Shown one piece after another: positions 1,007 to 37,070 of a stretch of 37,070 bases of DNA. Both the position numbers and the translations under genes were made by a program. The notes below the pieces were generated by a model. It saw only the letters and a list, made by a program, of their open reading frames with translations. It was not told the origin of the DNA and ran no database searches. This DNA comes from a virus. Location of the stretch: positions 1 to 37,070 of the IMG/VR virus record IMGVR_UViG_3300020201_000005. One strand, given 5' to 3'. Position 1 is the first letter of the stretch. Every line of letters starts with the position of its first letter.

Positions 1007-1837
1007 ATGGTTATCCTCAACTTCGAGCTCCCCCTACCCGCACGCGAAAACGAACGCTACGCGCCGGTCGGCAGTGCGCCGTCACGCCCGCAAAATGTGC
1101 GCGTCCTGTTCGACCTGTTCGACCTGGAACAACCAGTCACGCCGCAGCTCCGCCGCCTGCTGGACGAGCTCATATTCTGGCGCAAGAATGGCACCCGGGT
1201 CGGCAAGCTGATCGTCCTGCCATCGCTCAACTACGCGGCGGCGGATGTGCTGGTCGCGGAGTTACACGGTCGCATGGGGGATTTCTCAGCAATCTTGCGT
1301 TTGCGCCCGCGCGATGGCGCGCTGGTCACGGAATATCATGCGGCGGAGACCATCTATACCCAAACAAACACAAAAAAAGGGGCGCTGGTCACGGAATATT
1401 ATGCTGAGGAGATCATCAACCCCGACGCGCCAGTCGGTCTGCCAGCGTTCGTCACCAACGCGCAGCCGCGTGCGACGCACACCGCAGACGACAGCGATAC
1501 CGTCAACAGTCGAGTGAGCAACGTGCAGCCGCGTGCGACGCGGCGGACGCACACCGCAGAGTACAAGCTACAGATTCTCGCCGAGGCGGATGCCTGCCGG
1601 CGCGGGAAGATCGGGGAATTGCTGAGACGGGAGGGGCTGTGCTACTCGCACCTGGCGAAATGGCGGGGAGAACGGGAAGCGGGCACGCTGGCAGACCAAC
1701 TGGCGCGGGAGTACGCGGCGCTGAAGCGGAAACTGAAACAAGCGGATGCAATTATCGAGGCGCAAAAAAATCTGGCACGGCTGTTGGAACGCGATATGGC
1801 GTCTGCGGTCATGGTACGAATGGAGAGTCAATCGTGA
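1007..1837 (+). CDS. Fusion protein with IS3 OrfA-like helix-turn-helix C-terminus, 276 aa
   Basis: The N-terminal ~110 residues are an unrecognised domain (FDLFDLEQPVTPQLRRLLDE). Next comes a linker with two internal duplications (GALVTEYHAAETI and GALVTEYYAEEII, and two QPRAT-HTA blocks). The last ~80 residues resemble the DNA-binding region of IS3-family OrfA: YKLQILAEADAC, KIGELLRREGLCYSHLAKWRGERE, then a leucine-rich coiled coil. No DDE transposase (OrfB) follows and no insertion-sequence ends are visible, so this looks like a captured DNA-binding module. ATG 1007 was preferred to GTG 986 because AAGG lies 9 nt upstream and the hairpin overlaps the earlier start. It is first in an operon with PrimPol (stop overlaps the next start), so a role in replication or its control is inferred. 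Confidence 0.7.
   Translation: MVILNFELPLPARENERYAPVGSAPSRPQNVRVLFDLFDLEQPVTPQLRRLLDELIFWRKNGTRVGKLIVLPSLNYAAADVLVAELHGRMGDFSAILRLRPRDGALVTEYHAAETIYTQTNTKKGALVTEYYAEEIINPDAPVGLPAFVTNAQPRATHTADDSDTVNSRVSNVQPRATRRTHTAEYKLQILAEADACRRGKIGELLRREGLCYSHLAKWRGEREAGTLADQLAREYAALKRKLKQADAIIEAQKNLARLLERDMASAVMVRMESQS
1601..1788 (+). repeat. Parent copy of the 188-bp direct repeat at 339-526
   Basis: This segment encodes the helix-turn-helix and leucine-zipper-like part of the OrfA-like protein. It is repeated in the same orientation at 339-526 with scattered substitutions and no gaps. The copy ends at CTGTTGGA in both places. Confidence 0.9.
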
Positions 1838-2694
1838 TTGCAACACGAGAAATAACAATTGTCGATGCGGCGCTGTGCTATTTGAGCGCTGGCATGTCGG
1901 TAATCCCTGTCAAGGGCAAGGTAGCCACAGTAAATTGGCGTATTTTCATGCTGGAACGCGCAACGGTGGCGCTGGTAGAGGCGTGGCAGCGGCGCGGACT
2001 GCTGACCGGGATCGCTGTCGTGTGCGGTCGTGTGAGCAACAACTTAGTTGTGCTGGATCTCGATGGCGATGATGCGGTGAAGGCATTTCAAAGCCGATTT
2101 GCGCAAACGATATACGCAGATACATGGACAGTCCGATCTGGGTCTGGAAAAGGTATGCATATCTATTGGCGCGTGGCGCAAATGCCTCGAACGCTGCGCG
2201 CTCTGGGCACCACAGTCGGCAACATCGAACTACGCGCCGAAGGCTGCTACGTGGTCGCGCCACCGTCGCCGCACGCGACAGGTGGATCATACAGCGTGTA
2301 CAATCGCGCGCCGATCCGACGCCTGGACAATTGCGCGATTGTGCAGGAATGGTTGCTTGCACATAAGACCGCAAAACAAAATTCATGTCGAGCAACACAT
2401 CCCGCCAATCTCGATATAAAACAAGCGAGTCGATGGGCAGCGGCGGCGCTGGCGGCGGAATGCGCCGGCGTCCGAACGGCGGCGGCGGGGCGAAATAACG
2501 CGCTCAACCGCGCCGCGTTTAAGTTGGGGCAGCTTGTGGCGGCGGGGTATTTGGACCGGGTTACCGTTGAACAAGCGTTGGCGGACGCCGCGGGCGCGCT
2601 CACGGCAACGGACGGAGAGAGAGGGACACGGGCAACCATCCAGAGCGGACTTATTGCGGGGGCGCGCAACCCACGATTGAGAAAAGCAAAATGA
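1834..2694 (+). CDS. Bifunctional primase-polymerase (PrimPol domain), 286 aa
   Basis: Archaeo-eukaryotic-type primase domain of the phage and plasmid prim-pol family, expected to make primers and extend DNA at the fork. Visible motifs are the metal-binding LDLDGDD (about residues 69-75), the SGSGKGMHIYW stretch with its conserved His, and the ELRAEGCYVVAPPS block with the Arg and the PPS turn. A helical C-terminal region (GRNNALNRAAFKLGQLVAAG) resembles the small domain that follows PrimPol in many phages. There is no helicase domain, and DnaB is encoded separately at 32105. It starts with GTG overlapping the previous stop (GTGA), with GGAGAG 7 nt upstream, so it is translationally coupled. 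Confidence 0.88.
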   Translation: MIATREITIVDAALCYLSAGMSVIPVKGKVATVNWRIFMLERATVALVEAWQRRGLLTGIAVVCGRVSNNLVVLDLDGDDAVKAFQSRFAQTIYADTWTVRSGSGKGMHIYWRVAQMPRTLRALGTTVGNIELRAEGCYVVAPPSPHATGGSYSVYNRAPIRRLDNCAIVQEWLLAHKTAKQNSCRATHPANLDIKQASRWAAAALAAECAGVRTAAAGRNNALNRAAFKLGQLVAAGYLDRVTVEQALADAAGALTATDGERGTRATIQSGLIAGARNPRLRKAK

Positions 2695-8652: not shown

Positions 8653-9561
8653 TCAAATGATCCTCAATGTGCCGTCAACCCGCAGCGCCGAACTGACATA
8701 GACGCCGCCGCGCCACAGTGCGCTTGCGCCCGCTGGCACGGTCACGGTGCTATCGATCAGCGTTTCGACGCCGCCAACCGTGTTCGCGCCGCCAGCGGTA
8801 TGCTGCAGTGCTTCACAGTCGAGTTCCGTCAGCGCAACGGCGCCGTTGCGCAGCTTGACCGCGCCGAAAGCGATATGCAGCTTCCAATTCCACGATACGG
8901 CGAAGATTTGTTCAGCGCGCAGCGGCAGCGCCGTCGATTGACTTGACCCGCTCAGCGCGACAAGACTCGCTGGCACGGTGGTTGGATCGACGCCGTAAAC
9001 ACACCACGCCTGCTGCGCCGCGCTGAGCGGCAGCAACGCGGTAAAATCCACCGATCCACCGAGAAACCAAGCGGGTTTACCGTTGTGGTCGTAGCGACCC
9101 GGCTGCACGTCGATGCGCAGCGTTCCCGCAACGATCTTGCCGTTTAGCTTCAGGCGCAAGCGGTCGTCGGACAGGTACGGCATCGGCGATAGGCGATCAT
9201 GAGCATGTGTGCCGATGGACGCCGCCCCGCCGCCGTGCGCGATCAAGTCTTGCGCCCGCGCCGTCGGCGAATAAATCGCCAGCCGGTTGTTTTCGTCGCG
9301 TCCAACCCACACCTCCAAGTCAGGGATTTCCGCCGCCCGATCACGATGTTTCACCCGCGCGAACGAGTTTCCGCCTTCGGGTCCGAAGCGCACATAGTAC
9401 ACCGTCGGATCGTCCGGTGGTCGGATGACATACGTGCCGCCAATCGACACGCCGAGCCGCCCCGCCAAGCGCGGCGTAGCCGCGGTGTCAGCGCCGCCTC
9501 GTTCGCTGCGTCCGGTGAACAACACCGCTAATTCATCGTACAGCGCCGTCATGTCTGGCAT
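8653..9561 (-). CDS. Tail/baseplate structural protein, 302 aa
   Basis: The N-terminus has a short helical region (MTALYDELAVLFTGR). The rest is beta-rich, with an HAHDRLSPMPYLSDDRL segment and a C-terminal VPAGASALWRGGVYVSSALRVDGTL strand series like those at the end of phage fibre proteins. It sits one base from the large tail-tip gene's stop, so the two are co-translated. Probably part of the tail tip or fibre network. No specific family assigned. Confidence 0.6.
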   Translation of the reverse strand: MPDMTALYDELAVLFTGRSERGGADTAATPRLAGRLGVSIGGTYVIRPPDDPTVYYVRFGPEGGNSFARVKHRDRAAEIPDLEVWVGRDENNRLAIYSPTARAQDLIAHGGGAASIGTHAHDRLSPMPYLSDDRLRLKLNGKIVAGTLRIDVQPGRYDHNGKPAWFLGGSVDFTALLPLSAAQQAWCVYGVDPTTVPASLVALSGSSQSTALPLRAEQIFAVSWNWKLHIAFGAVKLRNGAVALTELDCEALQHTAGGANTVGGVETLIDSTVTVPAGASALWRGGVYVSSALRVDGTLRII

Positions 9562-13741: not shown

Positions 13742-16047
13742 ACCATTCTCCTTGCGCCCGCGATCATGCCGCGAACGACGCGTTGTTCAACGAGCGCCGC
13801 CAACTCGACAGGATCGGCAGCGGTAAACGTTGCGCCTCGCAAATCGATACTCATCCCCCCGCCCCCGCGCTGCGCGCCGGGCATAAATTCGCTGACGCCG
13901 AAGCCGCGTGGCGCGTTGACCAAAATCGGTGGCGGCGGCGCTGCTGCTGCGAGAAACGACTCGCGCCACGCATTCCAGCGTGTGAGCGACTGGCTCTGCG
14001 CGTTCGATTCGATTGCAAACTTGCCCAACTCGTGCAGCGAATACTGTGTTTCGAGTCTGTTAAGGTGACCTTGCAACTGCCCGACGCGCGTCTGCCAAGC
14101 GCCGTTTTCCTGAGCGTAGCGGTACTGACGATCCTGTTCCTCGCGCTGACGGCGCAGTGCGTAACCGTTGATCGCGTCGGACTGTTCGCGTTGCAGCGCC
14201 GCTTGTGCGTCGGCGCGACGCGTGTTGTAGGCTGCGATCAACTCCTGCTGTTCTTTCGAGAGGTTCGCGCGCAGGTCTGACAGTTCTTTTTCGAAGGATT
14301 TCTCGCGTTCCGCTTCTTGCGTGTTGTAGTTTTCAACTTCCGCGTCCGTCGCTTGCTTCGCGTCACGGATCGCACGCCTTGCGACGGCGAAGTTACGATC
14401 CGCGAAAGCGTCCTGCGTCTGATCCGCGAGGTTCAGCCGAATGTCGCGCAGCTTCTTTTCGTGCGCGGCAATCGACTTTTCACGATCCGCATTGTTCTTT
14501 TCGATGAGTTCAAACTGGTCGGCAGCGGCGTCCGATCCGGCAGCCGTCAAGTCCGCTTGCAACGACACCGCGTCGGCAACTTCCTTGTCGCGAAAGGCCT
14601 GAAGTTTATCCAAATAGGATGCGATGAAATCTTCAAGCTGCCGCTGTTCTTTGCGCGCCGCTTCGATTTCGTCGGTCACGCGCTTACTCAGTCGCTGGGC
14701 GTCCAAATCGCCGATTTGTTCGGCGTATTCGCGCGCGGCTTCGACCGCCGCCGTGCGCGCGTCCTTGATCTCTTGTAGCGCCGCCGTCTCTTTTTCGACA
14801 GCGGCAGCCTCAGCCGCGCGCGCCGCAATGTTCGGCAGCGCAGCGGTCACCAAGTTTTGGATCAGGTCGATTTCATCGAGGCGCGCCTGCATCGCTTCGC
14901 GCGTGACAATATTCTGCGCGATCAAGGATATTGTTCGCGCACGTTCAGACGCGAGGGCGTCCAGCATTGCCCGCGCGCTTTCAGTCGTTGCGCTGTCGAG
15001 TTGCCCCCAAGTGCTAATCATCGTGTTTGCCGATGCCAAGCGCGCGGCGGCAAGTTCGCGTTCTTCAGCTTCCGCATCGACGATGGCGGTTAGGTTGCCT
15101 TCGAGCGCCAAGGTGTAGCGCTGCACAAGGAATTCCTGACTGCTCAGCGATGCTTCCAAATTCTGCGTTTCAACACGAAGTTTTTGCGCGCCACCAAGAT
15201 CGAAAAGGTCAGCGAAGGCGCGACCAGCGCCAGTGACCTCCTCTTCAAACGCTGTCAAAATGGCGCGGTTTTCGGCAATGCGCGCGCGGTTGATTTCGAC
15301 CTCGGTTTGTGCCGTTAGCAATGCCGCTTCAAGCTGGTCGCGCGAACCTGTAACGATCGTTCGATAGTACTGATCTTGCGAAGCGATCAGCATACTGACT
15401 GTTTGCGACGCCTGCCGGTTCGATTCGCTGAACGCTGCAACCCCGACCGCTAGCGCCGCGCTAGCGACCAGCAATCCAATGCTCGCCGCATTCAAACCTG
15501 CAACGAAGTTCTTCACACCTGCCGCCGCGCGGGGGATGTATTCCCCAAGCTGCGTTAAATCTTCACCAAAATTCAGGATTTCGCCCGCCACGCCCGGCAC
15601 TAACGCCCGTAAAGCGCCCATCGACGAAGACAAATCGCCATAGGACTCAGCCAGGTCGCGGTTGACCCCCAAGACTCGTTCTTCGCCGTTTCTCGAACCG
15701 CCGCCTCGACCCGCGGGCGCTGAACCGCCGCCGCGCTGAACCGCCGACAACGCGCGGGCAACCCCGCGTATTTCGTCGTCCGAAGCCCCCAGAAACGCCA
15801 ACTGCTCGTTGACGCTTTCTAGTACCGCGCTGAGACTCTTGCCTTTGGTGATTGCGTCGGTCGCGCCCGCCGTCAGCGCGTCGAATGCCCGGACGCGCGC
15901 AATCTGCGAAAACTCGACGTTCATGCGCTCGGCTGCGGTTTCGACGTCCAACGCACGCTTGCGCGTCGAATCGAGCAGTTGGGTGAGCGCGGCGTTGGCT
16001 TGCGTGGTGTCGGCAGCAACCCGTAGGAGAATGTCTTCGTCTGCCAT
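13738..16047 (-). CDS. Tail tape measure protein, 769 aa
   Basis: Long, mostly alpha-helical and coiled-coil protein rich in Ala, Glu, Gln and Arg, with an N-terminal DILLRVAADTTQANAALTQL typical of tape measures, a hydrophobic segment around residues 190-210 (SIGLLVASAALAVGVAAF) and a C-terminal ALVEQRVVRGMIAGAR. The family sets tail length and threads the tail tube. About 770 residues suggests a tail near 110-120 nm on the usual 0.15 nm per residue scale. ATG 16047 is chosen over the GTG two codons upstream because the purine-rich GGGTGG lies at better spacing. Confidence 0.88.
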   Translation of the reverse strand: MADEDILLRVAADTTQANAALTQLLDSTRKRALDVETAAERMNVEFSQIARVRAFDALTAGATDAITKGKSLSAVLESVNEQLAFLGASDDEIRGVARALSAVQRGGGSAPAGRGGGSRNGEERVLGVNRDLAESYGDLSSSMGALRALVPGVAGEILNFGEDLTQLGEYIPRAAAGVKNFVAGLNAASIGLLVASAALAVGVAAFSESNRQASQTVSMLIASQDQYYRTIVTGSRDQLEAALLTAQTEVEINRARIAENRAILTAFEEEVTGAGRAFADLFDLGGAQKLRVETQNLEASLSSQEFLVQRYTLALEGNLTAIVDAEAEERELAAARLASANTMISTWGQLDSATTESARAMLDALASERARTISLIAQNIVTREAMQARLDEIDLIQNLVTAALPNIAARAAEAAAVEKETAALQEIKDARTAAVEAAREYAEQIGDLDAQRLSKRVTDEIEAARKEQRQLEDFIASYLDKLQAFRDKEVADAVSLQADLTAAGSDAAADQFELIEKNNADREKSIAAHEKKLRDIRLNLADQTQDAFADRNFAVARRAIRDAKQATDAEVENYNTQEAEREKSFEKELSDLRANLSKEQQELIAAYNTRRADAQAALQREQSDAINGYALRRQREEQDRQYRYAQENGAWQTRVGQLQGHLNRLETQYSLHELGKFAIESNAQSQSLTRWNAWRESFLAAAAPPPPILVNAPRGFGVSEFMPGAQRGGGGMSIDLRGATFTAADPVELAALVEQRVVRGMIAGARRMV

Positions 16048-18583: not shown

Positions 18584-19096
18584 TCACCCTTTCTTCGCTG
18601 CATCGCGGATCAGCGTCGTAAAGCGCGTGGTGAACGCTTCGGTGTACGACTCCAACCAGAAATCAATCGTCAGCGCGACCGGAAACCAACCCGTATTTTT
18701 GTGAAACCGCTGCTGCGGATCGGGACCCGATCCGCGTCTAATATTGCCTACGACATACGGCGCGTATTTCACGCTGTTGGCAATCGTCATGGCGAAGCCG
18801 TTGCGCTGCTCATCGAGCCGGATGAACCACGACTTCGACAAGCGCTGCGTGCGCTGGTACGGTATGTTTCCTTGCTTGCGCAGCTTTGCCATGACCGCGC
18901 GCCGCTGCTTTTCACTCGTCCACTGGATCGGGCGTTTGACCGGACCAGGTTCATGCGCCAATTCGTTCAGCAATTCGGCGCGTTCGGCGTCGAATACATC
19001 GCGCCCCGCCGCCAACGTCGTTTCGCGCGCGTCTTTGAACAGCGTCGCCAACACATCGAGCCGCTTGGATTGGACAATTACATCAGTCCGGATCAT
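18584..19096 (-). CDS. HK97-gp10-like tail completion/head-tail joining protein, 170 aa
   Basis: The features of this family are visible: an N-terminal helix (RLDVLATLFKDARETTLAAG), then the central QWTSEKQRRAVMAKLRKQG, then YQRTQRLSKSWFIRLDE followed by a strand region ending SVKYAPYVVGNIRRGSGP. The protein joins the tail to the head completion ring. ATG 19096 is chosen, as an upstream ATG at 19141 would overlap the previous gene by 58 bp against 14 bp here, and GGGATGGA is upstream. Confidence 0.7.
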   Translation of the reverse strand: MIRTDVIVQSKRLDVLATLFKDARETTLAAGRDVFDAERAELLNELAHEPGPVKRPIQWTSEKQRRAVMAKLRKQGNIPYQRTQRLSKSWFIRLDEQRNGFAMTIANSVKYAPYVVGNIRRGSGPDPQQRFHKNTGWFPVALTIDFWLESYTEAFTTRFTTLIRDAAKKG

Positions 19097-21874: not shown

Positions 21875-22555
21875 CTAAAACCGAACCAGCCTTTTTGTTT
21901 CCAATCGTGCTGCCGACATGTCACCCGTCGGCGCTTTGCCGACCGCGTTAGATGGTGATCCGACGCCGCCAGCTTTGAAGAAATGCGCGCGAGCCAGTTT
22001 CGCATCGGCAACCAGCGCGTCGATCTTCTTGGCATCCGGCGCGCCGTCGGCGTTCAACGCGGCAGCGTATGCGTCAGCAGCGTATGCCTTAGACCACGCC
22101 ACGACATCCTCAGCCTCGACCGCGCCCGCCCGCGCCGCTGCCGCGCTGACGGCGCTGTGCCGCTTATCCTCAAGCCGCGCCGCGCGTTCGCCGTCAAGCT
22201 GCGCCTTGAGGTCGTCGCGTTCCTTCGTCGCTTTCAGCGTCGCGTCGGCAGCCTTCTGCACCTCCGATTTGTCGGCGTCATCACGGTTGCGCGCCGCCTT
22301 CAACGTTGCCTTCAGCTCGTCGGTGTTATCAACGCTCAATTCCTTCAACAAATCGGACAACGCTGTCTTGCGTCCGGCGTCACGCGCTTCACCGGCGATC
22401 CGATTCATGGTGTCTTGCGTGATCGCCGCTTGCCCGCCCGTTGTTTCCGGTGGCGTCTCCGTTGGCGCTTCGTCCACACACCATGAACGCCGCTGTGTCA
22501 GATCGACGCTGTAGCGCGCGTCAGTTCGGCGTGCCGCTTGCTTCACCTGCCGCAT
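21875..22555 (-). CDS. Capsid scaffold protein, 226 aa
   Basis: Highly charged, mainly helical protein with a coiled-coil centre (SEVQKAADATLKATKERDDL, GERAARLEDKRHSAV) and a basic C-terminal end (SAARLETKRLVRF), as in phage scaffolds that bind the capsid through a basic tail. It lies immediately before the decoration and capsid genes. ATG 22555 is chosen because AGGAG is 7 nt upstream, while in-frame ATGs at 22561 and 22585 are badly spaced. Its 5' third is duplicated, inverted, at the contig ends. Confidence 0.8.
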   Translation of the reverse strand: MRQVKQAARRTDARYSVDLTQRRSWCVDEAPTETPPETTGGQAAITQDTMNRIAGEARDAGRKTALSDLLKELSVDNTDELKATLKAARNRDDADKSEVQKAADATLKATKERDDLKAQLDGERAARLEDKRHSAVSAAAARAGAVEAEDVVAWSKAYAADAYAAALNADGAPDAKKIDALVADAKLARAHFFKAGGVGSPSNAVGKAPTGDMSAARLETKRLVRF

Positions 22556-22733
22556 ATCCATGCTCCTATCTATAGCCGCCGTCAACCGCCGGCGTTGCGT
22601 ATGCCCGCGTGCGGAATTGCACCGCTGTACTTGGCGCGGGGATTGTCTTTCAAAGTTACTCTCCTACCCACAATTCGCTGCACGGCACGCGCGGACGATT
22701 GACGATTTGCCACGAATGCGGACAATTGATGTG
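22241..22733 (-). repeat. Long inverted repeat, arm B (parent copy)
   Basis: This 493-bp segment covers the end of the minor head gene, the spacer with ribosome-binding site, and the first third of the scaffold gene. The other arm is 36841-36970 plus 1-342. About 130 bp around the scaffold start (roughly 36945 to 106 on the other arm) is identical between arms, long enough for homologous recombination and for assembly ambiguity. Confidence 0.9.
22582..22653 (-). CDS. Possible leader peptide before scaffold, 23 aa
   Basis: TTG at 22653 follows an AGGAGAG box by 5 nt, and 23 codons (KDNPRAKYSGAIPHAG after the start) end at TGA 22584-22582. It fills the 100-bp gap between the minor head gene and the scaffold. 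The frame is also open in the inverted copy, with two amino-acid changes. It could be a leader that couples translation or simply a chance frame. Confidence 0.3.
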   Translation of the reverse strand: MKDNPRAKYSGAIPHAGIRNAGG

Positions 22734-28015: not shown

Positions 28016-28240
28016 ATGGCGAAGCTAAAAGACATGGCGATTAAATACGGCGAAGCGCTAGAAACGCTCATACCGAGATTGATCGTTCAGGAAGGGTCGA
28101 TCTCGGGCGCGGCCAAGTTGTTGGACGTCTATCCGTCTGCGGTTCGTTTTTGGATGAACCGCAATGGATTCGACATGATCGTTGAGCGTCAATTTCGGCA
28201 AATAGTGACGGTCGTGAAGCGCGAAAGCGCGACGTCATGA
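28016..28240 (+). CDS. Small helix-turn-helix protein, 74 aa
   Basis: First gene of the rightward operon. Residues about 27-50 (GSISGAAKLLDVYPSAVRFWMNRNGF) fit a helix-turn-helix of the type seen in small regulators. It probably binds DNA near its own promoter (inverted repeat at 27939-27959). It is coupled to the ParB-like gene by ATGA. Cro- or transcriptional-regulator-like function is inferred. Confidence 0.7.
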   Translation: MAKLKDMAIKYGEALETLIPRLIVQEGSISGAAKLLDVYPSAVRFWMNRNGFDMIVERQFRQIVTVVKRESATS

Positions 28241-29685
28241 AGATTGTCGATGTCCGGCTTGATGGCGGCACGCAGCCGCGGGGCTGGCTGAACGAAGAGA
28301 CAGTCGCCGGTTACGCCGAAGCCTTAGCGCGCGGTGACATATTCCCGCCCGCGCGCGTGGTCTACGACGGCACGAGCTATTGGCTCATCGATGGCTTCCA
28401 TCGTATCGCCGCGGCGCGTAGATGCGCCTGGACGGACTTCGATTGCTCAGTCGATGCCGGCACGTTGGAAGATGCACAATGGCGCAGCTACAGCGTCAAT
28501 GCTGCGCACGGCTTGCAGCGCAGCAACGAGGATAAGCGTCGCGCCATCCGCGCCGCATTGCTGCATCCGCAAGGCGGCAGCAAGTCCGACCGCGAAATCG
28601 CCACGCACGTCGGTGTCAGCCATCCGACCGTCGCCGTAATCCGCGCAGAGCAGGTCGCATCTGGAAAACTTTACCAGATAGACCCCCACCCCCGTCTCGT
28701 GCGGCGCAACGGCACGGTGTACGCACAAAAAGCCGCCGCGCGCGCGGCATCGCAACCCCCCGCCGATCCGGCGGCGGTCGTGCTGCCAGCGGACGATACG
28801 CTGATCCAAGTGGGTGATTTCGTCTTGACTCGTACAGGTCACGTTGGTCAGCCTGCTAACGACTACGCCGATCCGCCTTTCGACGATGACGTGCAGCCTT
28901 TCGACGATGACGTGCAGCATTTCGACGATCAACCGACCATCGCCGAAATCGCCGAAATCGCCGAAATCGACGGCAAGTCGATGCGCAATTATCTCAAAAC
29001 GCGCGGTATCGGGAACATAAATTGGTGTGTTCGGCATGAACGGAATGGCAACGCCGGAACATACAGCGTCTCGATGTCCATATTTGACACCACGAAAAAA
29101 AATCCGCAGTTGGAAATCGCCGTCGCGTCACTGTCAGCCATCGGCTTCGTCGTCCTCGACTCCGGCATGGACATTCAACCCGGCGCGTCAGCCAATCTCG
29201 GCTTCAACGGCGTCGATACACCGATGATTTGGTTCTGCGAGCCGACCCACCCGCACCGCGCGTACCTGCAAGCCTCAGCCACAGCCGAGCGGCAGCGCCG
29301 CGCCGACCGTGACGCGAAGCCCGAACCGCCGTCGCTCGTCCCCAACGGCAGCGCGAACGTCGTCCACCTCCGTGACGCGAAGCCCGAACCGCCGTCGCTC
29401 GTCCCCAACGGCAGCGCGAACGTCGTCCACCTCCGTGACGAGCCGCCGTCAATTCCGACCGCGCACGCCGTCGCTGACGTGCTGCCAGCGTCGCAATCTG
29501 ACCGCGAGGCGCGGATAATCCGTGCGCGCAACCATATCGATATCGCGGTGGAGGCGCTTGAAGACTTGGCAGATGATGCCCAGTTGGCGATTATCCGAAT
29601 CCGACTCATTCAGGCGCGCGAAGACTGCGTAAAAGAACTGTTGAAAGAGATACCACCTCGGCAATTTGTAAAGGGGATCGAATAA
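28237..29685 (+). CDS. ParB-like DNA-binding protein with repeat-rich linker, 482 aa
   Basis: The N-terminal ParB/Sulfiredoxin domain is recognised from ARGDIFPPARVVYDGTSYWLIDGFHRIAAARR, followed by the HTH KSDREIATHVGVSHPTVAVIR (about residues 115-136). No ParA gene is adjacent. The second half has low-complexity repeats (PFDDDVQ twice, AEI three times, a perfect 21-residue duplication) and an unrelated C-terminal helical domain. Such solo ParB-like phage proteins act as regulators, recombination accessories or segregation factors. A palindrome shared with two promoters lies within its coding sequence at 28658-28680. Confidence 0.75.
   Translation: MKIVDVRLDGGTQPRGWLNEETVAGYAEALARGDIFPPARVVYDGTSYWLIDGFHRIAAARRCAWTDFDCSVDAGTLEDAQWRSYSVNAAHGLQRSNEDKRRAIRAALLHPQGGSKSDREIATHVGVSHPTVAVIRAEQVASGKLYQIDPHPRLVRRNGTVYAQKAAARAASQPPADPAAVVLPADDTLIQVGDFVLTRTGHVGQPANDYADPPFDDDVQPFDDDVQHFDDQPTIAEIAEIAEIDGKSMRNYLKTRGIGNINWCVRHERNGNAGTYSVSMSIFDTTKKNPQLEIAVASLSAIGFVVLDSGMDIQPGASANLGFNGVDTPMIWFCEPTHPHRAYLQASATAERQRRADRDAKPEPPSLVPNGSANVVHLRDAKPEPPSLVPNGSANVVHLRDEPPSIPTAHAVADVLPASQSDREARIIRARNHIDIAVEALEDLADDAQLAIIRIRLIQAREDCVKELLKEIPPRQFVKGIE
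28658..28680. promoter_or_regulatory. Palindrome (operator or parS-like candidate), copy 3, inside parB-like gene
   Basis: CATCTGG-AAAACTTTA-CCAGATA matches the core of the palindromes at 807-835 and 36206-36234 (CATCTGG-N9-CCAGAT, centre AAA-C-TTT). Finding it within the coding region of a ParB-like gene, as parS sites sometimes are, makes that protein the first candidate to bind it. Chance recurrence of a 23-bp near-palindrome three times in 37 kb is unlikely. Confidence 0.55.
28876..28929 (+). repeat. 21-bp tandem repeat in parB-like linker
   Basis: Two exact copies of a 21-bp unit (28876-28896, 28897-28917) plus a partial third encode PFDDDVQ. Nearby, GCCGAAATC is repeated three times at 28942-28968 (AEI). 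Confidence 0.9.
29308..29433 (+). repeat. Perfect 63-bp tandem duplication in parB-like linker
   Basis: Bases 29308-29370 and 29371-29433 are identical, encoding the same 21-residue unit (KPEPPSLVPNGSANVV core) twice. The identity at synonymous sites shows recent duplication. The linker length is probably variable. Confidence 0.95.
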
Positions 29686-31092: not shown

Positions 31093-32108
31093 CCAGCCAT
31101 CTACCAAACTCGTTCCAATATCCGAATGTCTATGTCGATCGTGCTATGGCTTATTTGACCGAGCCGGAGCTGCGCGTCCTGATGTTTACCGTCAGGCATA
31201 TTTTCGGTTGGCAGGATCGCATTGACGCGCGCACTGCCAAGATCAGCCTCAGCATGTACGAAAAAGGTTACGTCTCGAAAAACGGTATGGCTTTTGGAGG
31301 CTGCGGCCTCTCACGACCATCGATCGTCAAGGCGCTGAACAGCCTCGTTGAACTCGGTTTCGTGGAACGCTTTGGTTCGCCAACTGCGAGTGGTCAAAAC
31401 TGGCGCATACCGACCAGCGAACCACGCTGGCAAATCCTCGAATCCCGTGCCGGAACTGGTAAACGCCGTTTACTAGCGCTGGTAAACGGCGTTTACCAGT
31501 CAGACGAAACCCGGTTAACGGCGTTTACTAGCGCTGGTAAACGCCGTTTACCCAAACAAACCCATATACAAACACAAAAAGAGATCAAAGAAGATCAGTC
31601 CGCTAAAGCGGACGCTGCACCTGCGCATTCAAAGAAAAAAAATGAAGCTGCAAGCAAACCGGCGATACCGCTGCTGATCAAAGCGTGGCTCGACGCGCTG
31701 CCCGGCGGCGCCCCTGTGCGTTCGCCGTATGCGAACAAGACGATTCGCGCCGCAGCCGACACACTCGCCCAGCGTGGGATTACCGAAGAGCAGATCGCCC
31801 GCTACACGCGGCAGCTTGCTTCACAAGATTTTTGGCACGCAAAAGTCGTGCCATTTGTATACATGGCTGACAACATCGGCGCATGGTTGGCGGTGCAGCC
31901 GTCATATGCGTCCGCGCCTGCAATCGTCAGCGATACAACCGTCAGCGATACAACCGTCAGCGATACAACCGTCAGCGATACAACCGTCAGCGACGAGGAT
32001 TGGGCGGCATTCGACGCGCTGACGGCGGCAGTGGCGTATGACAAATCGTATGCCAAATCGTTGACATACATTCAGGGATCGCGCGAGCAGCGAGGAGGTG
32101 ACCGATGA
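31089..32108 (+). CDS. Lambda-O-like replication initiator with embedded origin, 339 aa
   Basis: The N-terminal winged-helix domain (YPNVYVDRAMAYLTEPELRVLMFTVRHIFGW, then LSRPSIVKALNSLVELGFVERFG) is typical of phage replication proteins of the lambda O and DnaD-like group. After about residue 120 comes a linker whose DNA holds the iterons, then an A-rich segment, and then a C-terminal helical domain (IRAAADTLAQRGITEEQIARYTRQL). The end includes five VSD repeats (SDTTV) from a tandem repeat. It should bind the iterons and help load DnaB. It is coupled to the DnaB gene (ATGA overlap). Confidence 0.85.
   Translation: MTSHLPNSFQYPNVYVDRAMAYLTEPELRVLMFTVRHIFGWQDRIDARTAKISLSMYEKGYVSKNGMAFGGCGLSRPSIVKALNSLVELGFVERFGSPTASGQNWRIPTSEPRWQILESRAGTGKRRLLALVNGVYQSDETRLTAFTSAGKRRLPKQTHIQTQKEIKEDQSAKADAAPAHSKKKNEAASKPAIPLLIKAWLDALPGGAPVRSPYANKTIRAAADTLAQRGITEEQIARYTRQLASQDFWHAKVVPFVYMADNIGAWLAVQPSYASAPAIVSDTTVSDTTVSDTTVSDTTVSDEDWAAFDALTAAVAYDKSYAKSLTYIQGSREQRGGDR
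31459..31551. other. Replication origin iterons, four 15-bp palindromes
   Basis: GTAAACG-C/G-CGTTTAC sites at 31459-31473, 31482-31496, 31514-31528 (one mismatch) and 31537-31551. Spacing 23, 32 and 23 bp, with TAGCGCTG between pairs 1-2 and 3-4. The arrangement inside the initiator gene, in the linker between its domains, matches lambdoid origins, where O binds iterons in its own gene. The perfect CTGGTAAACGGCGTTTACCAG palindrome around site 2 is given as shape, not as proof of binding. Confidence 0.82.
31552..31660. other. A-rich candidate DNA-unwinding element
   Basis: Directly after the iterons the top strand is poor in G and rich in A (about 31556-31597 and 31630-31660, with an 8-A run). 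A perfect hairpin GTCCGC-TAAA-GCGGAC (31598-31613) lies between. This is the usual layout of an AT-rich strand-opening region next to iterons. The assignment is by analogy. Confidence 0.6.
31926..31993 (+). repeat. 15-bp tandem repeat in initiator gene
   Basis: Four exact copies of GTCAGCGATACAACC at 31926-31985 followed by a partial copy. They encode VSDTT and are probably slippage-prone without frame change. Confidence 0.95.
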
Positions 32109-35597: not shown

Positions 35598-36190
35598 TGA
35601 AAGTCGAGGAACTGAGCGCAGCCTTTCGCGCAGCCTGCGCGCTGCGTGGCATCGACCTTGAGCGCGGCGCGACGGAGTACCAGGCCTGCAATGCGAAGTC
35701 GGCGCTCCAACGCCGCCGCTACTGGCAGGATCGGGAACGGGAAGGCACGACGCCGGATTGGTGGCATCGGCTCAAAAATGCCAACTCGCGACTGCCGCGA
35801 GATAAATCGTCTGAAAAGGTCAAGGCGCGCTGCTACTATGGCGCGCCAAAGACCAGCCTCGAGAGCATTGCGCTGGAGCGGATTCAGCGCGCCATGTGGA
35901 TGCATTGGCGCGTCCGGCGCTATGGTCGCGCGTGCCTGACACGGCGCGAATACGACGCGCTGGTCGCGTCTGCCGATTTGCGCCGCGAGTCCGATCATAG
36001 CGCCGGGTCGGACAACCAATCGCAGCGCGCGATTGCCAAGCAGCTCGGCATCTCGCAGCCGCGCGTGAGCCAGCTGCTCGCCAACGCCGACCGCGCAATG
36101 CTGTATTTCGAAGAAACCGGCGTCGATGCGCGCTGGATCACGTTCGGCGCGTTTTTACGCTTGGTCGCCCCAGTCGAGACCGACCGCTGA
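35597..36190 (+). CDS. Sigma-region-4-like HTH protein, 197 aa
   Basis: The C-terminal part (LTRREYDALVASADLRRE and QSQRAIAKQLGISQPRVSQLLANADRAM, about residues 117-170) has the ...IAKQLGISQPRVSQLL... helix-turn-helix of sigma-70 region 4 and related factors. The N-terminal helices (about residues 1-100) are not a recognised sigma domain. It may act as a late-gene activator. ATG 35597 overlaps the previous stop. Its last 20 codons are duplicated at 729-790 together with the following promoter. Confidence 0.65.
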   Translation: MKVEELSAAFRAACALRGIDLERGATEYQACNAKSALQRRRYWQDREREGTTPDWWHRLKNANSRLPRDKSSEKVKARCYYGAPKTSLESIALERIQRAMWMHWRVRRYGRACLTRREYDALVASADLRRESDHSAGSDNQSQRAIAKQLGISQPRVSQLLANADRAMLYFEETGVDARWITFGAFLRLVAPVETDR

Positions 36191-36205
36191 TTGCGCAGTT
36201 GCTGG

Positions 36206-36234
36206 GCGCATCTGGTAAACTTTTCCAGATGCGC
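36206..36234. promoter_or_regulatory. Palindrome (operator candidate), copy 2
   Basis: GCGCATCTGG (36206-36215), TAAACTTTT, CCAGATGCGC (36225-36234), identical to the palindrome at 807-835. It begins 15 bp after the stop of the sigma-like gene and ends 26 bp before the -35 box at 36261. It could bind a regulator or, on RNA, act as a hairpin after the gene. The copy inside the parB-like gene favours DNA binding. Confidence 0.6.
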
Positions 36235-36260
36235 AGCTTGGGAACATATAATTTTCGGCA

Positions 36261-36289
36261 TTGACACAACGAATACAATCTGCTATACT
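36261..36289 (+). promoter_or_regulatory. Strong sigma-70 promoter, copy 2
   Basis: TTGACA (36261-36266), 17-bp spacer, TATACT (36284-36289) with TGC before the -10. Start expected near 36296. It drives the two small genes at 36368 and 36698 and then the duplicated scaffold fragment across the join. Confidence 0.85.
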
Positions 36290-36314
36290 TCTTTTATTCA
36301 CAGGCAACAAAACC

Positions 36315-36345
36315 GCGCGTCCGGTGACTGAAACACCGGACGCGC
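36315..36345 (+). promoter_or_regulatory. 12-bp leader hairpin
   Basis: GCGCGTCCGGTG (36315-36326), loop of 7, CACCGGACGCGC (36334-36345): a perfect 12-bp stem about 20 nt after the transcription start and 9 nt before AAGGAG of the gene at 36368. No T-run follows. It may protect the 5' end or attenuate transcription. Confidence 0.6.
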
Positions 36346-36367: not shown

Positions 36368-36649
36368 ATGACATTAAATATCTTTGGGGTACACCTCCAA
36401 ATCACCCGCGCAACGAGTTTCGCGCTGCCCATTGGCGCGCTGCCCATTGGCGCTCATGTCACTTTCGTGTCGGTTCGGCGCAATCGCGCCAATGGTCAGC
36501 GCGAGAGCTTGGTGTTTACGGGGAGGGTGGTCGATTGCGACGCCACCCCAGACAGTTGGGGCGACGCCTACGCGCGCGTCGCCTACACAGAGTTCGCCGG
36601 GGCGACGGCGATCATGTGGCTCAACGTAGCCGACCTGACCGAACTCTAA
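36368..36649 (+). CDS. Small beta-rich protein, 93 aa
   Basis: It has a near-consensus ribosome-binding site (AAGGAGATTACATT-ATG). The N-terminus has a 5-residue tandem repeat (ALPIG twice, 15 bp in DNA). The rest is strand-rich (AHVTFVSVRRN, YARVAYTEFAGATAIMWLNV). No family recognised. First gene after the second copy of the strong promoter. Confidence 0.65.
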   Translation: MTLNIFGVHLQITRATSFALPIGALPIGAHVTFVSVRRNRANGQRESLVFTGRVVDCDATPDSWGDAYARVAYTEFAGATAIMWLNVADLTEL

Positions 36650-36697: not shown

Positions 36698-36883
36698 ATG
36701 AACGCGACCGCAGACCTGACGACCGAAGCCCGCCGCCTGTTCGCTGCGGGCGAAAACGAAGCCGGACGCTACGCGCTGGTCGAGGCGCTGGCGCACTTTA
36801 TGTCCATGTACCAGCGCGGCGCCAGCGCCGCCGACCTCGCCACATCAATTGTCCGCGCGTGCCGTGCAGCGAATTGTGGGTAG
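36698..36883 (+). CDS. Small protein with end replaced by repeat DNA, 61 aa
   Basis: The N-terminal 48 residues (MNATADLTTEARRLFAAGENEA, VEALAHFMSMYQRGASAADL) form a plausible helical protein. Its final residues (SIVRACRAANCG) are encoded by the inverted repeat (from 36841), so the original C-terminus has been lost or replaced. AAGGA lies about 8 nt before the ATG. Function unknown. Confidence 0.5.
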   Translation: MNATADLTTEARRLFAAGENEAGRYALVEALAHFMSMYQRGASAADLATSIVRACRAANCG

Positions 36884-36970
36884 GAGAGTAACTTTGGAAG
36901 ACAATCCCCGCGCCAAGTACAGCGGTGCAATTCCGCACGCGGTCATACGCAACGCCGGCGGTTGACGGCG
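36841..36970 (+). repeat. Long inverted repeat, arm A (part before the join)
   Basis: This copies the end of the minor head gene and the spacer before scaffold (22576-22733, opposite strand). Relative to that copy, 27 bp are missing between two near-identical 12-mers (TCAATTGTCCGC and TCAATCGTCCGC), the signature of slippage or recombination between short direct repeats. Upstream of 36841 the two copies are unrelated. Confidence 0.9.
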
Positions 36971-37070
36971 GCTATAGATAGGAGCATGGATATGCGGCAG
37001 GTGAAGCAAGCGGCACGCCGAACTGACGCGCGCTACAGCGTCGATCTGACACAGCGGCGTTCATGGTGTG
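36971..37070. repeat. Terminal 100-bp direct repeat (right copy)
   Basis: This is identical base for base to positions 1-100. It begins just before the ribosome-binding site and ATG of a truncated scaffold-gene copy, so that gene fragment is read across the contig ends. Confidence 0.95.

Follow-up and report, generated by a model that had tools for sequence, protein, structure and literature searches.

Among the described systems closest to the locus considered here, KorB of plasmid RK2 represses promoters from operators lying 4-10 bp to >1 kb upstream by means of a CTP-dependent clamp, and upstream of promoters its operator, OB, takes either a proximal position (4-10 bp) or a distal one (45 bp to >1 kb) (PMC11790492). 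Regulators of the StrR type also combine a ParB-like N-terminal domain with a helix-turn-helix (HTH; PMC10886168), and one of them, Bbr, regulates itself (PMC6022936). In ParB of C. crescentus, the exchange R173Q makes the protein prefer adenine (PMC7383237). Single cases of sites within partition genes have been described, in repABC systems (PMC9040568). In ParB-like proteins, the choice of nucleotide is not reliably readable from sequence (PMC12704722). ParB-like proteins lacking ParA are widespread, and most of them have no known targets.

One such protein is encoded by the virus record IMGVR_UViG_3300020201_000005, of which positions 1 to 37,070 were analysed; this whole 37,070-bp stretch is termed the window. 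The minus strand carries late phage genes (terminase, portal, capsid), and the plus strand carries early and replication genes, including those for an O-like protein, DnaB helicase, RusA and a Prim-Pol protein. A 100-bp terminal repeat is present at the record ends. These ends are also a mosaic in which the scaffold-gene region and a transposase-like HTH fragment recur in copies of 91-99% identity: 36845-37070 and 1-342 pair with 22241-22702, and 324-526 pairs with 1586-1788; the circular ends of the record are located inside such a mosaic repeat.

The ParB-like gene (28237-29685, plus strand) encodes 482 aa, with a ParB N-terminal fold, an HTH at approximately residues 112-142 and a long variable C-terminal part. 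It matches PHROG 1033, "ParB-like partition protein" (E 1.9e-13). Its fold was predicted with a pLDDT of 85.8, and the best structural match of the model is KorB (Z 12.4, 3.5 Å, 134 residues), followed by Noc and ParB. A profile built from relatives matches ParB structures (E 8e-8), the window protein itself gives no Pfam ParB_N match, and the D-G-F-H-R motif (52-56) shows little or no variation among relatives. As modelled, the protein thus belongs among the ParB-fold DNA-binding proteins in the broad sense, with the ParB N-terminal fold followed by an HTH. The HTH helices, assigned by DSSP on the model, span residues 118-125 and 129-141 (codons 118-141, 28588-28659, plus strand) and include the putative specificity residues R119, S128, H129, P130 and T131, which coevolve with bases of the site described below. 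No AAA_31 match indicative of ParA was found anywhere in the record, while the control was found in 14/14 genomes. Scans with the ParB-like and sigma-like proteins as single queries returned no relatives. Relatives of the ParB-like protein are annotated as "streptomycin biosynthesis regulator," a label that recalls the StrR family, whose members have a helical C-terminal domain behind the ParB-like domain and HTH and activate antibiotic clusters.

In the window, a small HTH-like protein of 74 aa (28016-28240, plus strand; weak HTH match) overlaps the start of the ParB-like gene and was considered a possible, KorA-like partner; the open reading frames upstream of relatives' ParB-like genes include no homologue, and it was rejected as a conserved partner on that ground. 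In four relatives (L101, L109, L236 and L263), the reading frame directly 5ʹ of the ParB-like gene, of ~170 aa, has a sigma-70-type look by eye, which suggests a sigma/ParB-like gene pair. The contig of L104 carries two tandem ParB-like genes (L209; 9882-10694 and 10842-11573), the second with a perfect palindrome of its own variant and the first with a weaker one.

An earlier note on this DNA described a palindrome present in three copies, two of them 26 bp before identical promoters and one inside the parB-like gene. The pattern CATCTGG-N9-CCAGAT was indeed found without mismatch at 810-831, 28658-28679 and 36209-36230, and exactly three copies exist in the window. The full palindromes beside the promoters (807-835 and 36206-36234) are identical, with the sequence GCGCATCTGGTAAACTTTTCCAGATGCGC. 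The copy in the gene (28656-28680) has a 21-bp core at 28659-28679, ATCTGGAAAACTTTACCAGAT, and encodes ASGKLYQI directly after the recognition helix; it agrees at 23/24 bases with the promoter copies when these are read as their reverse complement. Together the sites are described by ATCTGG[T/A]AAA-C-TTT[T/A]CCAGAT, in which one pair is mismatched, A/A or T/T at position -4. With 5 mismatches, the closest other 21-mer in the window is at the level of chance, since the best in eight shuffled windows have 5 to 7.

Although all three sites are real, the two promoter copies are not independent. Both lie within one 200-bp duplication (726-925 and 36125-36325, plus strand; 97% identical, with a 1-nt indel), the first segment of which also holds a 3ʹ fragment of a sigma-like gene, so the palindrome has occurred independently twice rather than three times. 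The two sigma-70-like promoters, TTGACA-17-TATACT, share the same hexamers (861-889, recognised from its sequence, and 36261-36289, which has 11/12 consensus bases and a TG before the -10; both plus strand), while the spacing from palindrome to -35 box is 26 nt for the box at 36261-36266 but 25 nt for that at 861-866. Located 3ʹ of the first promoter is the gene for the Prim-Pol domain protein (1834-2694, plus strand; PF09250, E 2.8e-23), a possible target. Located 3ʹ of the second is a gene for 93 aa without known relatives (36368-36649, plus strand; zero Pfam or PHROG matches), a likely target. A terminator reading of the palindrome was rejected because no T run follows it.

Is the copy within the gene a matter of chance? 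Given the encoded peptide and the codon use of the phage, a match with at most one mismatch has P = 8e-6. Moreover, the codon stretch falls among the rarest 0.5% for codon use, and a like distortion is seen in the iteron region of the O-like gene, which served as a positive control. The in-gene copy is not a chance occurrence. RNA folding at the palindrome is unremarkable (z -1.9), and an RNA hairpin was rejected because the folding score is only this low and the central pairs are complementary too.

Outside the window, the exact sequence is essentially private. The 23-bp version is absent from all GTDB species genomes in an exact-pattern scan, and a scan with the promoter pattern gave no match. 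The exact 21-bp pattern occurs in one further contig of the viral collection, the T4-like L004, which is about what chance would give, the estimated expectation for that collection being 0.3. Three close kin by terminase (L005-L007) stop short of the ParB-like gene. The family feature was therefore revealed only by searching for palindromes at the same position in the gene. Palindromes of 20 or 21 bp with ≥9/10 pairs were scored, the linker zone being the 150 nt after the helix. In the viral set of 72 genes (71 viral relatives and the window), 44 carry such a palindrome, 39 of them inside 150 nt after the HTH, while synonymous shuffles give 1.4 in the linker zone on average and at most 3; all 22 perfect palindromes fall within this zone. 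A cellular set of 76 genes, comprising the window and 75 genes from GTDB genomes of Acidobacteriota, Planctomycetota, Cyanobacteria, Proteobacteria and Chloroflexota, gave the same picture, with 40/76 linker palindromes versus 1.4 in shuffles and 22 perfect ones versus 0.13. Linker palindromes are also present in plasmids of Chlorohelix and Rhodovastum. About 45% of relatives have no clear linker palindrome; the feature is common, not universal. The earlier note would have counted a lack of conservation in relatives outside the duplicated promoter against its reading. Relatives indeed do not share the exact sequence; what they conserve is the presence of a palindrome at this position in the gene, and its specificity covaries with the protein.

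The sequences themselves differ between relatives, as in L137 (TCTATCTGGGGAAATTCCCCAGATAGA), L143 (GGCGACTGCGCAACTTGCGCAGTCGCC) and L103 (ATCTTCGGAAATTCCGAAGAT), around a family half site of [GCA][AT]CT[TG][GC]NRAA flanking a single centre base. Variation at the inner positions is symmetric, also for the central pairs, and the centre is seen in each of the three codon phases. These symmetric changes, the three phases and the unremarkable RNA folding mark the element as a dyad in the DNA, not a feature of the peptide or the RNA. Peptides like EIPQ or EIPK do recur in the linkers of relatives, and one could suppose that the palindrome simply results from a conserved linker peptide and resembles the promoter palindrome by accident. 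This supposition has next to no probability; it is already refuted by the synonymous shuffles, which preserve the peptide and make the palindromes vanish, and it fits neither linker sites that encode different peptides in all three phases nor a window site built from rare codons. A DNA site would instead explain the seemingly conserved EIPQ-like peptides as its shadow.

Further palindromes were seen in ParB-like genes. In L118, L150, L160 and L164, a second class, GTGGAATCNGATTCCAC, encodes VESDST at a linker offset of 67-106. Another phage ParB-like gene (L086, 1975-2020) has two tandem palindromes, ACTAGTCAGACTAGT, farther from the HTH. Planctomycete ParB-like genes (L275, 4600-4790; L281, 122-200 and 5179-5310) hold several near-identical palindromes, ATCATCGGAAATTCCGATGAT, 57-108 bp apart, L281 holding further copies elsewhere.

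The identity of the protein that reads the site is indicated by a sample of 83 non-redundant genes, in which inner bases of the palindrome follow residues of the HTH. Residue 129 is matched with base -5 (H with G in 38/40 genes, E or D with C in 23/23, Q with A in 6/6 and V with T in 3/3), residue 119 with base -6 (R with G in 44/46; N, V or S mostly with T), residue 128 with base -3 (D with G in 23/23; S mostly with A), residue 130 with base -4 (K with G in 21/23) and residue 131 with base -1 (T with A in 52/54; F with C in 15/15). In a plain permutation, which ignores kinship, the z-scores of these pairs are 29, 18, 15, 11 and 17, respectively, and the best column of the N-terminal domain reaches only 6.5 in the same permutation. 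On a tree of residues 1-110, which excludes the HTH, base -5 changed at least 36 times. Among nearest pairs, base -5 differs in 23/26 where residue 129 differs and in 1/15 where it is the same (P 3e-7). Furthermore, rules taken from viral genes, when applied to cellular genes of <70% identity, predicted the base in 22/24, 21/24, 20/25 and 24/27 cases, and in 13/20 at position -4. The codons of the specificity residues lie outside the site, which starts at codon 141.

In the window, R119, S128, H129, P130 and T131 predict G, A, G, T or A, and A, respectively, and these bases are present in 3/3 sites. Because the inner bases follow its recognition residues and those of the window protein predict all three sites, the ParB-like protein almost certainly recognises the palindrome in its own gene and beside the two promoters, as judged from sequence covariation. 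Position 129 aligns with the Arg of "GKARSTV" in Spo0J and, by motif, corresponds to R173 of C. crescentus ParB, where the adenine preference brought by R173Q is paralleled by the pairing of Q129 with A in this family. Of the candidate binders named in the earlier note, the ParB-like protein is strongly supported by this residue tracking in 83 relatives, while LexA-like and sigma-like proteins are unneeded, with nothing that supports them.

The remaining candidate was the replication initiator, on the ground that the half site resembles the edge of the iterons in the O-like gene (31456-31552). The resemblance holds in that CTGGTAAA is common to both and that all seven copies of it in the window lie within palindromes or origin iterons. 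However, the dyad of the iterons exceeds the palindrome in width by 4 bp, and clusters of the genome's own half site were found in none of 27 relatives examined, which leaves the link to the initiator weak. It is very improbable that the O-like initiator, by way of CTGGTAAA tying replication to transcription, or a LexA-like or sigma-like protein binds the sites, since the site bases track the recognition helix of the ParB-like protein and not another gene. A replication link, if there is any, would concern this phage only.

Second palindromes that match the genome's own variant outside the gene were found in 12/78 contigs, many of which are fragments, whereas decoy scans with other genomes' variants matched in 25/4934 (0.5%). 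They are intergenic in the contigs of L103 (at 8296) and L287 (at 7012), as is an 18/19 match at 18703 in that of L107, which stands outside the 78 contigs with an in-gene copy of only 8/10 pairs. Also between genes, the contig of L151 has a tandem pair just 5ʹ of the ATG at 13901, and L252 has a weaker match (15/19) at 8846, 5ʹ of a start codon. In L101, L095 and L291, the second sites are located at gene ends, so not all second sites are promoter sites.

Taken as a whole explanation, the palindrome is very probably the operator of an orphan, KorB-like ParB-type regulator, the protein encoded at 28237-29685. From the directly computed sites, their family-wide place in the gene and the residue-base matching, we infer that a dimer would bind the palindrome with two HTH units, R119, S128, H129, P130 and T131 setting the inner bases of the half site ATCTGG[T/A]AAA. 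One operator would be part of the reading frame of the protein's own gene, in loop codons directly after the recognition helix, and the other, duplicated together with its promoter, 25-26 bp 5ʹ of a strong early-type promoter. An orphan regulator of this kind, most likely KorB-like, would load at dispersed operators, perhaps in the form of a clamp that depends on a nucleotide, CTP or ATP, and would control neighbouring promoters and its own operon by repression or activation. A role of the in-gene site may be autoregulation or loading, and its position would hold site and helix together through transfer or alteration of the gene.

The same reader could instead bind its sites for DNA partition or positioning, as at a parS-like centromere, and not for transcription. 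The ParB fold and the precedent of parS sites inside or beside partition genes (PMC9040568) speak for this, but the record has no ParA, and the sites of the window, L151 and L252 lie just 5ʹ of promoters or start codons, which makes such a role unlikely, but by no means negligible. The probabilities given to rivals do not exclude the KorB-like explanation, as this shared reader illustrates. A mobile or recombination element, either of the REP kind or a point at which C-terminal domains are exchanged, would account for a palindrome placed where the conserved N-terminal half meets variable C-terminal parts, for the duplicated promoter copy and for the small arrays in L275 and L281; the fixed place in orthologues and divergent sequences that follow the recognition helix render this origin highly improbable.

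An in-gene cognate site fixed after the recognition helix is likely, not certainly, new. A 2025 survey of orphan ParB-like fold proteins does not mention palindromes (PMC12704722), and the literature covered, mostly without subscription papers, contains no account of a site that coevolves with a recognition helix from a constant position behind it. It is conceivable, if somewhat less than probable, that the recognition helix and its operator together make up one cassette of ~100 bp, by which this large orphan family carries an in-frame address so that specificity and site move and change together. Phages, plasmids and prophages could then switch specificity often, in keeping with the minimum of 36 changes counted among 83 genes, and label the DNA they own as self, a basis for compatibility groups or immunity. 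A site a few codons from the helix would show how a change of specificity can be survived. The target would be readable from the gene itself, as the palindrome after the HTH, so hundreds of orphan regulators become testable, and the family yields a DNA recognition code with natural replicates.

Compared with known systems, the locus shares features with several. Like ParB-parS and Noc-NBS, it combines the ParB N-terminal fold with an HTH in which the R173-aligned position sets a base (PMC7383237). However, the length of the site differs, parS is nearly constant across bacteria while the sites here vary between relatives, and no ParA is present. The operator is unlike the parS consensus, TGTTNCACGTGAAACA (PMC7022226), and ParA is not encoded with the ParB-like protein, as it would be in ParABS. 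Sites of ParB type also lie inside coding sequences in repABC plasmids, including the 5ʹ end of repB, but those are true partition systems with a RepA partner, and the position of their sites varies instead of being tied to the end of the recognition helix (PMC9040568). VirB of Shigella is likewise a ParB relative that uses CTP, has no partition role and acts on promoters from upstream sites; it differs as an anti-silencer of H-NS, and the accessible parts of the sources mention no in-gene site (PMC10770331, PMC10653881). StrR-type regulators (StrR, Bbr, Dbv4, NovG) resemble the protein in joining a ParB-like domain to an HTH and in binding palindromes 5ʹ of promoters. An N11 spacer separates the two halves of the StrR site, GTTCRACTG-N11-CRGTYGAAC, as it does in ACTG-N11-CAGT sites here, the Bbr/Dbv4 consensus GTCCAR-N17-TTGGAC differs from them, and the portions of this literature that were accessible describe no in-gene operator. 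With sites 25-26 bp 5ʹ of the -35 box, an activator, a distal silencer and a loading site would fit equally well, and StrR-type activation is equally open. The likeness to KorB and OB of RK2 extends to a ParB-type fold with an HTH, to a protein that would be a regulator more than a partition protein and to dispersed operators, which here lie near promoters at 807-835 and 36206-36234, with the additional in-gene copy; by analogy, sites 25-26 bp 5ʹ of the -35 box and one in the regulator's own gene fit a KorB-like regulator. No KorA relative was found, and OB is a 16-bp site, whereas the palindrome here is odd-centred and 21 bp long. Unlike KorB and OB, this family carries a copy of the site in frame in the regulator's own gene, with a specificity that varies from genome to genome.
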